Shown in pieces: positions 4,941 to 33,091 of a stretch of DNA of 34,949 bases (the stretch's first letter is position 1; every line of letters starts with the position of its first letter). The notes beneath the pieces are model-generated. The model saw nothing but the letters and a program-made list of their open reading frames with translations, searched no databases and was not told the origin of the DNA. Source of the DNA: Verrucomicrobiota bacterium (GTDB lineage Bacteria; Verrucomicrobiota; Verrucomicrobiia; Limisphaerales; SIBE01); assembly GCA_016871535.1 (NCBI GenBank), contig VHCZ01000039.1, positions 1 to 34,949 on the forward strand, written 5' to 3'. The position numbers and the translations under genes are program-made.

Positions 4941-5014
4941 TTAACAGGAGCAAACAGAGGCAACGGAGTCGCGCTCCCCATTCATTCTCAGTTGACTCCG
5001 TTGCCTCCTGTTAA
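4941..5014. repeat. Inverted repeat with a 7-base interruption
   Basis: The left arm TTAACAGGAG, an inserted CAAACAG, then AGGCAACGGAGTC (4941-4970) mirrors the right arm GACTCCGTTGCCTCCTGTTAA (4994-5014). Without the insertion the arms pair perfectly over 21 bases. A related sequence (GTTACCTCCTGTTAAGA) occurs near 27364. It lies between ruvX and truA, where a terminator would be expected, but no T-run follows. Confidence 0.8.
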
Positions 5015-5142
5015 GGTGTTTCGGTTCTGGGCGAACACCACGCTCAACACGACGGCTTCGCAAGCCCCGTTTCCGCAGTCCAAAACGAGTCCAAAACCTG
5101 CCGACGTGACGAACGGTCTTCAAAGCCGTAAAGTCTCGCTCC

Positions 5143-18812: not shown

Positions 18813-18945
18813 GTAGCGCAGACTTGCAGTCTGCCGCATCGCCGATTTGCAGTCGGCAGCGCGCCGACGAGTCCGAGGCACCGGAACTTGCCGCCACGCC
18901 GCAGAATGCAATTCTGCGATACAGCAGGTTGCAAATCTGCGCTAC
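18813..18945. repeat. Four-hairpin repeat, family B copy 1
   Basis: A 133-base palindromic element between GTAGCGCAG and CTGCGCTAC. It contains four 17-base hairpins with 7-base stems and 3-base loops at 18818-18834, 18841-18857, 18901-18917 and 18924-18940. The loops are TGC in the left pair and GCA in the right pair. Stems 2 and 4 contain a G-T wobble. A second copy is at 28001-28134. It lies between the ROK-like gene and the glycoside hydrolase. Confidence 0.9.
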
Positions 18946-24359: not shown

Positions 24360-24382
24360 GGTCGGGAAATGCAGCAGTTCTG

Positions 24383-24491
24383 CCCATGCACCTGGTAGGG
24401 CGAATCCGTCCCGGCGAGCCGCTCGGCGTGCGTGGAACACGCGCAGACCGGCTCGCTGGGGACAGGCTCGCCCTACCGTCAGGTTCATGGG
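24383..24491. repeat. 109-bp palindromic repeat, family A copy 2
   Basis: The same layout as at 1844: CCCATGCACCTGGTAGGGCG at the left, then a variable centre, then CTCGCCCTACCGTCAGGTTC ending in ATGGG. It lies 23 bases after the permease stop, in the convergent gap before rhaA. Confidence 0.9.
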
Positions 24492-24754
24492 CGGAATCGC
24501 TCAGGTAATGGCTGATTGCTCGCGAGTGATTTCACGCAACCGTAAATCGGGGTGCCTCGACCCAGGCGCTGCGAGAGCATGGCGAAGGTGTGGCAGCGGG
24601 TTTTGATGTTTGTAAGTCCACGCCAAACCGAAGCCCGCCCGCCACACCTTTTCTTTTTCCACCCACAGCGCGCTTGCCAATGTGTAGAGCCATGGAGAGG
24701 TGGAGTGGTGTGGGATCATGGGAAGCTTCCTTGGTCTGATGACCATGCTCACGC
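24492..24754. other. Intergenic spacer between two family A repeats, no gene supported
   Basis: This 263-base stretch separates repeat copies 2 and 3 in the convergent gap between the permease and rhaA. Open frames exist on both strands (for example 24501-24686 minus), but none has a start site, protein-like composition or a recognisable domain. It could be a decayed segment or the inside of a larger composite of the two flanking repeats. Confidence 0.5.
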
Positions 24755-24863
24755 CCCATGAACCAGGTAGGGCGAGTCCGTCCCGGCGAGCCGCTCGACG
24801 TGCCTGGACCACGTCCGACTCGGCTCGCTGGGGACAGGCTCGCCCTACCGTCAGGTTCAGGGG
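24755..24863. repeat. 109-bp palindromic repeat, family A copy 3
   Basis: CCCATGAACCAGGTAGGGCG through GGTTCAGGGG. The 12-mer TCCTTGGTCTGA stands just upstream (24728-24739), as it does before copy 4, suggesting the mobile unit is longer than the palindrome. The right end abuts the 3' end of rhaA. Confidence 0.9.
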
Positions 24864-24874
24864 AAGCTTTCTGG

Positions 24875-27094: not shown

Positions 27095-27447
27095 GACGCG
27101 CGCATCCTGCGGGAACGATTTTTGAAACGCAAGGGCAAGCGGCCCAGCATGGCAAGACCCGGCAAAGCCGCGACCGAGCCGTTACAACGTTAAAAGGTTA
27201 AATCGTTAAATCGGTTAAATGAGTGGGGTGACAAGTTTCACCTCGGCCTGCGGGCAATCTGGGCGTTTGTAGAACACGGGCTTTTTCGCAGACCCGGCTG
27301 CGAGGAAGTGGCCTCGCAGCCTTTACGAAAGGGGAACTAAGAAAATGAATCTCCGTTCCCTCTGTTACCTCCTGTTAAGATCCTCTCTTCTTGCGACAAC
27401 AACTTTGAACTTGGAACCTTAAACTTTGAACACCGCAGATGCCGCCT
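27095..27447. other. Repeat-bearing intergenic gap of 353 bp, no gene seen
   Basis: The gap lies between the SDR gene and dtd. It holds AT-rich near-tandem GTTAAA units (27191-27220), a perfect 9-base-stem hairpin (GCTGCGAGG at 27297-27305 with CCTCGCAGC at 27312-27320), and a GTTACCTCCTGTTAAGA motif shared with the inverted repeat at 4941-5014. A similar GTTACAAGGTTAAATCG occurs at about 15461. No T-run follows the hairpin on either strand, so I do not call a terminator. Confidence 0.6.
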
Positions 27448-27900: not shown

Positions 27901-28000
27901 AATTCGTCACCTGGAGTGCAGGGCAGGCATCTGGCCTGCCTGCTTGTTTCCTTGCCATCTGGAAGCCGTGCGCATCTCCAAATGAGGACGGGCACAGGCC

Positions 28001-28134
28001 GTAGCGCAGATTTGTAATCTGCCGTATCGCGGAATTGCATTCCGCAGGGGCCCGACGAGTTCCAAGGCTCTGGAACTTGTCGAAGCGCCGCCGATTGCAA
28101 ATCGGCGATACGGCAGAGTGCAACTCTGCGCTAC
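28001..28134. repeat. Four-hairpin repeat, family B copy 2
   Basis: A 134-base element with the same order as at 18813. Its four perfect 7-base stems with 3-base loops are at 28006-28022, 28029-28045, 28090-28106 and 28113-28129 (loops TGT, TGC, GCA, GCA). The linker GACGAGTTCCAAGGCTCTGG between the pairs is shared with copy 1 in altered form. It lies between dtd and the DUF6807 gene. Confidence 0.92.
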
Positions 28135-28192
28135 GCTTGGTGAGGTCCTTGCGCAGCACCCTCGTTCAGAGATGCGCCCCTGAAAACCTGCC

Positions 28193-29128
28193 CTACTTCT
28201 CAGAGGCGTATTTCTCAAATTGTTCCTCCAGCCATTCCTTCGACGCGCTTCGCTGGTAGATCAGGACGCGATAGCGGAACTTGCGTTCGCTTCCGGCCGG
28301 CAACGACCAATCCCCCAGCATCGACACCGCCGGATTGATCAAGCCTTGTTCATCGACCCGCCAGCCGGAGGGATGATTCGGATTGCTCGGATGATCCAGG
28401 ATCGCGATGCCGAACGTTTCGTTGCCGAACAGGCGCTCCACGTTGCACCATTGGGCGCGCTTCTGTTCGCATTCCCGGCCCCGCAAGCCATTCGAATTGA
28501 GATGCGTCTGCTTCGGATTGGCCTGGTCCCAGGGCATTCGAGCCGCCAGGCCGCCCACGCCGAATTTGCCGAACGTCACGTCCTGGCTTCTGGCACGAAG
28601 GAGAAAATCAAAGTCAATGAAGTAGAACCCGGCGATTCCAGCGCTGCCCTGTTCCCGGGCGCCAGGTTCTCGGGCCGCATGCACAGCAACCGACTGCTCT
28701 TGCTCCAGGACTACACGGCCGCCGGGATCGACCAATTCCGTGAGCGATTTCCAAGACACTCGCGAGTCGGACTGATTCGATTCCAGCAGCTTCACGAAGC
28801 GCTGCCGGCCTTCGTCTTCCTTCCAGTAATTGAAGCCGTTGACTCGGTGGAATCCGGTGAAGATGCCGTGCTGCCAGGGATGATCGGCGGGCCGATTGTC
28901 CGTGAGCACGACGTGGCCGGAGAGATCGCGCACCGGATGAAGATACGGGCGCAACGCCGGGTCCAGGACGTGGGTGAGCAGTTCGAACCACGCCGCGCTT
29001 CCGGCGCTTTGTGCCAGGAGTCGCAGTTCTTTCGCGCCCCGCTCAAGCTTCAGCTTCACCGGGCCGGGTCCAATGGCAACCCTGAGCTGGAGCACGCAAT
29101 CCCCTTGGGATTGGCGAGCGCCATGCAC
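28193..29128 (-). CDS. DUF6807 (PmoA-like) family protein
   Basis: About 311 residues. The domain runs through GPGPVKLKLERGAKELRLL, LRPYLHPVRDLSGHVVLTDN, DHPWQHGIFTGFHRVNGFNY, FYFIDFDFLLRA, GGLAARMPWD, AILDHPSNPNHPSGWRVDEQ, the segment LINPAVSMLGDW and FRYRVLIYQR. The family (DUF6807, labelled methane oxygenase PmoA in databases by old naming) is common beside Gfo/Idh genes in Verrucomicrobia and Planctomycetes and probably acts in sugar metabolism; the reaction is unknown. The start is uncertain. I use GTG 29128, because everything upstream in this frame is repeat DNA. A signal-peptide-like stretch lies in another frame from 29193, so the 5' end may be damaged. Confidence 0.78.
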   Translation of the reverse strand: MHGARQSQGDCVLQLRVAIGPGPVKLKLERGAKELRLLAQSAGSAAWFELLTHVLDPALRPYLHPVRDLSGHVVLTDNRPADHPWQHGIFTGFHRVNGFNYWKEDEGRQRFVKLLESNQSDSRVSWKSLTELVDPGGRVVLEQEQSVAVHAAREPGAREQGSAGIAGFYFIDFDFLLRARSQDVTFGKFGVGGLAARMPWDQANPKQTHLNSNGLRGRECEQKRAQWCNVERLFGNETFGIAILDHPSNPNHPSGWRVDEQGLINPAVSMLGDWSLPAGSERKFRYRVLIYQRSASKEWLEEQFEKYASEK

Positions 29129-30957: not shown

Positions 30958-31063
30958 GACTAACCTGGTAGGGCGAGTCCGTCCCGGCGAGCCGCTCCAC
31001 GCGCGTTGAACACGTCGGTTCGGCTCGCTGGGACAGGCTCGCCCTACCGTCAGGTTCATGGGA
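30958..31063. repeat. Palindromic repeat, family A copy 4
   Basis: It begins near GACTAACCTGGTAGGGCGAG and ends CAGGTTCATGGG. The left terminal CCATGAACC is degraded and the right arm lacks one G compared with other copies. The 12-mer TCCTTGGTCTGA precedes it (30948-30959), as with copy 3. It sits in the divergent promoter region between the Gfo/Idh gene and the gamma-glutamyltransferase. Confidence 0.88.
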
Positions 31064-31150
31064 ACGGCCAGACGCGAAAGAGTCAAAAAAAGCCCAACAG
31101 GAAAATGAAATGGATATCCGCAGGCCTTGCCGTATTCTAGAGGCGCTGCT

Positions 31151-32855: not shown

Positions 32856-33091
32856 CCAAACTTTGAGCCAGATGCATCGTATGTGTCTAGCGTGGGGTAG
32901 GGACGGATTCCACTCCGTCCCAAATCAGGCCTCAAGGCTGATTGCCGCCCAGGACGAGACGATGGGCCAACGGAGGCCCCTGGTTTTCCGTTGTCCGTCT
33001 CTCCGTTCGGAGGACGCCTCAAGGATTAGTCAGGGACGGAGTGGAATCCGTCCCTACCAACGCTAACCACATGCTGTGCATCAAAGTTTGG
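32856..33091. repeat. Nested inverted repeat element
   Basis: A perfect 25-base inverted pair lies at 32897-32921 and 33033-33057. Each arm is itself a hairpin (GGGACGGATTCCACTCCGTC with final CC, 8-base stem). Outside it, an 11-base inverted pair CCAAACTTTGA / TCAAAGTTTGG (32856-32866 and 33081-33091) marks likely outer ends. The element fills almost the whole gap between ggt and the HEAT gene. Confidence 0.88.

Follow-up and report, generated by a model that had tools for sequence, protein, structure and literature searches.

What kind of element changes the letters of its stems in matched pairs, and what spreads it, are the questions raised by two copies of a repeat found in the 34,949-nucleotide stretch of DNA analysed here (the window), which is contig 39 of a 6.67-Mb Verrucomicrobiota genome assembly of 460 contigs. 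Each copy consists of four 17-nt hairpins, with GTAG or GTAT feet, flanking a spacer of about 44 nt (Table 1). All eight of the 17-base hairpins named in a preliminary description of the window were located; the stem differences quoted there between the copies were exact, and the loops were as given (left arm, TGC or TGT; right arm, GCA). The stems had been described as paired, which held overall, except for the G.T pairs in the 18813 copy. The whole element had also been called one palindrome, and its arms are indeed inverted, but their complementarity is only 75-80%. Read outward-in on either strand, an arm has the form GTAGC, hairpin (GCAGA..TNN..TCTGC), one base, GTATC and a second hairpin (GCNGA..TNN..TCNGC), a tandem pair with a period of 23 in which the outer REP has the GTAG foot and the inner hairpin the GTAT foot; each outer REP has a 7-bp stem and a 3-nt loop with T first. 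The hairpin pattern was matched 13 times in the window against 2.0 expected, a number reached in none of 100 shuffles.

Table 1. Positions in the window of the two four-hairpin copies and of the repeats surrounding the 28001 copy.
Feature	Position	Strand
Full four-hairpin REPIN copy, 134 bp (GTAG...CTAC)	28001..28134	
28001 copy, outer REP: GTAGC foot + hairpin GCAGATT-TGT-AATCTGC	28001..28022	+
28001 copy, inner hairpin, GTATC foot: GCGGAAT-TGC-ATTCCGC	28024..28045	+
28001 copy, central spacer hairpin, 12-bp stem, seen in this copy	28053..28082 (about)	
28001 copy, inverted inner hairpin, GTATC foot: GCCGATT-TGC-AATCGGC	28090..28111	-
28001 copy, inverted outer REP: GTAGC + GCAGAGT-TGC-ACTCTGC	28113..28134	-
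28001 copy, four hairpins proper	28006-28022, 28029-28045, 28090-28106, 28113-28129	
Second full copy, 133 bp; hairpins 2 and 4 with one G.T pair each	18813..18945	
18813 copy, four hairpins proper	18818-18834, 18841-18857, 18901-18917, 18924-18940	
Larger inverted repeat around 28001 copy, left arm (GCGCATCTCCAAATGAGG)	27970..27987	+
Larger inverted repeat around 28001 copy, right arm (CCTCGTTCAGAGATGCGC)	28160..28177	-
Older two-hairpin REPIN, left remnant (GGGCAGGCATCTGGCCTGCC), whole in sister species	27916..27940	+
Older two-hairpin REPIN, right remnant (AACCTGCCCTAC)	28185..28196	-

Other repeats were also seen in the window. A family of about 131 bp with inverted ends GGTAGGGCGAG...CTCGCCCTACC occupies four places (1832-1962, 24371-24501, 24743-24873 and 30962-31064), and a palindromic repeat TTAACAGGAG...CTCCTGTTAA occupies two (4941-5015 and 27350-27379). 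An inverted pair at 32896-33058 (GGTAGGGACGGATTCCACTCCGTCCC) has a GTAG-footed hairpin of another type, which also occurs close to the C165 RAYT. A 31-bp inverted repeat, 97% complementary and 213 bp apart (15550-15580/15794-15824), encloses an inner inverted pair (15691-15715/15770-15794) and looks like another MITE.

The window's genome (G000) holds about 200 copies of the four-hairpin element, usually exactly 134 bp long. Exact outer half-sites numbered 175 in this genome (reversed control pattern, 0), and 21 of the 25 full copies in a 1.1-Mb sample were exactly 134 bp, with none in a shuffled control. The same half-sites were counted 72 and 86 times in two genus-mates, a few times in the rest of the family and 29 times in one genome of another family, with none in most others. 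With a looser loop the counts were 317, 120 and 247 for the window's genome and the two genus-mates, and at least one match was present in 47 of 320 genomes of the order, so that element copies range from hundreds in some genomes to zero in most. Among the matches listed in a collection-wide scan, nearly all were MAGs named Verrucomicrobia, with few under other names. Most copies are intergenic, 7 of 30 being called within genes by a crude gene call.

This anatomy and distribution agree with REP elements and REPINs on several counts: a GTAG-type tetranucleotide (outer GTAG, inner GTAT) lies 5' of a short stem-loop, the units form an inverted pair with conserved spacing, though with four hairpins instead of two, the copies are many and mostly extragenic, and the ends lack a target-site duplication. 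Both window copies very probably belong to a REPIN family, that is, to a non-autonomous element made of REPs (repetitive extragenic palindromes) and spread by a REP-associated transposase of the Y1/HUH type (RAYT, TnpA_REP), here in a four-hairpin rather than a two-hairpin form. Elsewhere in the order, RAYT genes are flanked by their own repeats, as in a REPtron, the repeats being the four-hairpin element (G013, L217/L226; G262, L143/L256; G003, L221/L227; G117, L257). In G013 (L217) full copies bracket the gene, a pair to one side and a single copy to the other; tandem repeats at the same locus also take in the start of a neighbouring gene along with the four-hairpin element and the RAYT (910-987, 1149-1226 and 2300-2377). 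The RAYT protein matched the REP-associated tyrosine transposase model NF047646 (REP_Tyr_transpos; E 2.8e-22, 79.2 bits, just under the cut-off of 80), Y1_Tnp and the solved E. coli TnpA_REP (PDB 4er8, E 2.3e-6).

Phylogenetic analysis of 46 RAYTs from the order gave a 19-member clade (SH-aLRT 97) accompanied by GTAGC-GCAGA (or GCCGA) REPs, nearly all arranged as tandem hairpins, and the N-H-x-H (HUH) and Tyr-x-x-x-N-P motifs are conserved throughout this clade. An automatic search gave no GTAG-footed hairpin near four of the 19 members; of these, L227 and L271 show GTAT-footed hairpins, and L227/L221 has full elements. In the sister clade the REPs are of GTAG or GTGG type, and those of the outgroup are two-hairpin REPs of GGAG type. 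Inspected by eye, members of the 19-member clade plainly show the four-hairpin layout, as do some of the sister clade (e.g., L229 and L281); L234, like the GGAG-footed outgroup, has two hairpins. REP foot and type follow the RAYT tree, so the enzymes and their repeats evolved jointly. Presence of the element was associated with presence of the RAYT clade (OR 6.2, p 0.0014, not corrected for kinship); a simple rule by which the element follows RAYT presence did not hold.

The window's genome itself contains 13 PF01797 matches, none with a four-hairpin element within 1.5 kb, and its RAYTs were therefore rejected as direct owners of the element. A close cognate RAYT was found neither in this assembly nor in those of the two genus-mates; the window's genome offers at best a match of 54% identity, whose REP is of another type. 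Both loss of the gene and an assembly gap are possible in this genus, the latter because the assembly is in 460 contigs, and REP families without a cognate RAYT in the same genome have been reported (PMC3733652). A search for a Y1/RAYT gene, as advised in the preliminary description, thus yielded, in relatives within the order, a gene with the element on either side of it, but none close by in the window's own genome.

RAYT-like sequences were also observed inside host genes. Y1/RAYT-like segments share the open frame of alanyl-tRNA synthetase (PF01411, E 2e-156) in G000:C141 (L039 397-3267, and L043) and G002:C166 (L434 694-4032, minus strand), with two inserts in G000, around which a REP-encoded peptide was seen, and two places in G002; these are in-frame transposase inserts in an essential gene of two species. 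RAYT domains lie in frame in a DinG-like helicase (Helicase_C_2) and in a type I restriction R subunit as well (G000:C42, L037 1-2580; G006:C339, L236 1-2214, minus strand).

A RAYT would recognise hairpins in single-stranded DNA from their foot, their loop and the paired shape of the stem, not from stem letters, cut near the element ends, and move or copy the unit. As pairing rather than letters would be read, stem letters may change if both sides match. TnpA_REP binds single-stranded REPs and cleaves at CT under the guidance of GTAG, and the S. maltophilia substrate has a perfect 8-bp stem and a 3-nt loop, some positions of which tolerate no change (PMC8266576). Compensatory stem changes are known in REPINs (PMC3116915), and the GTAG foot and REP dimers have been described (PMC3733652). 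From this published E. coli and S. maltophilia TnpA_REP work we infer binding, cleavage and transposition by the present RAYTs, and the element fits a reading in which foot, loop and pairing are fixed and the stem letters free.

The assessment of stem pairing covered 243 unique arms, of which 97.5% had a Watson-Crick pair at outer stem pair 6, against 34% expected from column composition, with all four pair types present, and inner pairs 3 and 6 were Watson-Crick in 92% and 91% against about 35% expected; the column pairs with the highest mutual information were stem partners. Among 76 dissimilar arms, in an alignment built regardless of structure and with counts not corrected for the tree, 96.2% of cells were paired against 83.0% after shuffling, 148 cells carried double changes, and the covariation score was 0.357 against 0.103 in shuffles (none of 500 as high). 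Covariation collapsed when stem partners were slid. Recent changes gave the same picture: where two arms differed at exactly two columns, these were stem partners in 35 of 265 cases against 1.7 expected. A lack of covariation once many copies were aligned, the outcome that would have refuted the preliminary description, was thus not seen, and the suggestion that paired changes imply selection on structure or a REP/RAYT-like, structure-reading enzyme is supported in kind by the covariation together with the RAYT linkage in relatives.

The same pairing could have a mutational origin, either through template switching (quasipalindrome correction) within each hairpin at replication or through exchange of whole hairpins between copies, rather than through selection by an enzyme. 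Short perfect stems are classic substrates for such correction, and variants often differ by a matched pair alone. However, the loops were never flipped: the loop types listed for 243 GTAG-oriented arms include no GCA-type loop, and nearly all these arms have T at the first loop position. The GTAG foot and RAYT linkage would also be left unexplained. As the full cause of the covariation this origin is unlikely, though it deserves weight; it concerns only the cause of the paired changes and is compatible with REPIN identity, and template switching in the hairpins may contribute to them.

That selection instead acts on the whole long palindrome, as a cruciform, might be supposed from the predicted energy optimum of the 134-nt strand, which is one long hairpin and not four short ones (for the 28001 copy, -53.8 kcal/mol against -42.9 with four hairpins enforced). 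This is very doubtful, as 96% of cells in stem columns pair locally and 75% across the whole element, and the two arms match at inner pair 3 in 1% of 119 elements against 37% expected. The corresponding value at inner pair 6 is 11%, also against 37%. By its sequence, this is a REPIN of paired-tandem form whose two arms are unlike; its local stems are kept paired and its whole palindrome is not. Ancestral asymmetry could explain part of this unlikeness; by eye, the REPINs of other RAYTs of the order likewise have unlike inner hairpins, and REP dimers are described as preferring heterodimers, without firm explanation, by Di Nocera et al. (PMC3733652).

The history of the 28001 locus was examined in the sister species G001, in which both neighbouring genes are conserved (81% and 84%). 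The intergenic gap measures 111 bp there and 284 bp in the window, and the 28001 copy is therefore absent at the syntenic site. The gap in G001 contains a whole two-hairpin REPIN (GTAGGGCAGGCATCCTGCCTGCC...GGCAGGCAGGAAGCTTGCCCTAC), remnants of which flank the 28001 copy, so that, in this one comparison, the copy would most simply be a younger insertion into the older REPIN; loss in G001 is the alternative, and the intact older REPIN there speaks for insertion. Neither the syntenic comparison nor a BLAST search with joined flanks gave a base-exact empty site, the intergenic DNA of the genus-mates being too diverged and the joined-flank matches being self artefacts. Direct repeats at the GTAG ends occurred at a rate close to that of permuted flanks, with none of at least 5 bp, and the base immediately outside these ends is C in 67%.

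These observations also bear on whether the repeat is a structured RNA or transcription terminator retained for host function. Strong predicted folding (z -11.0 and -4.8) and the mostly intergenic placement would suit such a role, which is nonetheless highly improbable: the element has no Rfam match, G-U pairs occupy few cells of the 76-arm alignment (about 7 of 1053), neighbouring genes are tandem in 18 cases, convergent in 2 and divergent in 2, so that there is no terminator-like bias to convergent gene ends, the 28001 copy is missing from the syntenic site in the sister species, and copy number varies between genomes of the order as described above.

Many copies in the window's genome are centred in larger inverted repeats, 39% of flank pairs lying at or above the 99th percentile of shuffles. 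The commonest larger unit is of 208 bp, CTGTGCAGACCGTGGGATTGACGACA...[134-bp element]...TGTCGTCCATCCCGCGGACCAAGCAG; it measured exactly 208 bp in 14 of 18 cases and had TA on both sides in 16 of 18, with no longer match, and, as in a TA-target MITE, terminal inverted repeats CTGTGCAGACCGTGGGAT. Its end pattern gave 192 matches, or about 95 copies, in this genome (e.g., L343, L354 and L357), so that about half of the element copies sit inside this carrier; the two copies of the window do not. Related MITEs of about 267 bp with the same ends lack the REPIN (L324 and L285). No cognate DDE transposase was found for the carrier; an IS630-like gene, the single PF13358 gene in the genome, was rejected as its owner since it lacks the carrier's ends. 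The carrier is classed as MITE-like only, because its transposase may lie elsewhere or be unassembled. The 208-bp unit looks like a TA-target MITE that captured a REPIN and multiplied it and, given that no close cognate RAYT was found in the assemblies of the genus, carriage by the MITE may now account for part of the REPIN's spread. In a fuller scenario, the HUH transposase belonging to the REPIN was lost from this genus, a TA-flanked MITE took the REPIN up at its centre, and a DDE transposase now spreads roughly 95 REPIN copies, about half of the total, as cargo. This is tentative and falls somewhat short of an even chance; if true, a single-strand element would have switched to a double-strand transposition pathway. 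That the 134-bp unit is itself a DDE-type MITE, with GTAGCGCAGA ends as ordinary terminal inverted repeats, can be dismissed as extremely improbable, since despite inverted ends, fixed length, high copy number and the location of about half of the copies inside a TA-flanked MITE, its GTAG ends lack target duplication, its internal hairpins covary, and the genes between copies are RAYT and not DDE.

REPINs, RAYTs, compensatory stem changes and REPs within palindromes are already known. The four-hairpin REPIN shares with the REPIN/BIME elements of Pseudomonas and enterics the GTAG foot, inverted short stem-loops, fixed spacing, high copy number, intergenic placement, RAYT linkage and compensatory stem changes (PMC3116915), but has two hairpins per half (GTAG then GTAT), four in total, systematically unlike arms and a Verrucomicrobiota host. 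The GTAG REP families of Di Nocera et al. 2013 (PMC3733652), including Opitutus terrae GTAG-17/19, likewise show the GTAG tag, head-head dimers, heterodimer preference and some dimers within larger palindromes; no fixed four-hairpin unit was found in the passages of it consulted, and O. terrae dimer partners are 1-2 bp apart. A perfect short stem (there 8 bp), a 3-nt loop and the GTAG foot are shared with the S. maltophilia group 3 REPtron (PMC8266576), whereas the Verrucomicrobiota stem is of 7 bp and tandem-paired. On motif reading only, the Verrucomicrobiota RAYTs (NHVH, WQ, Y...NP) look nearer subclass 2.7/2.4 of PMC6006769 than its short-REP subclass 2.5. The 208-bp carrier resembles TA-target (IS630/Tc1-mariner-like) MITEs in its flanking TA and terminal inverted repeats, and differs in bearing a whole REPIN centrally and in that no matching transposase was found. 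As far as a non-exhaustive literature search shows, the fixed unit of four hairpins together with the RAYT clade belonging to it in this Verrucomicrobiota group, and the multiplication of a four-hairpin REPIN inside a TA-flanked MITE, are new.

A hairpin-reading enzyme, the gene for which is present in related genomes, probably spreads this element and would explain why its stems change letters in matched pairs, and one clear rule emerges, in that each hairpin is kept and the arms are kept unlike. The element also provides a case of one mobile element multiplied within another. Across a single bacterial order, changes in the RAYT protein go with changes in REP foot, loop, stem and hairpin number. 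With this natural series, comparison can test which features a RAYT recognises and whether the inverted doublet is the smallest unit able to move.
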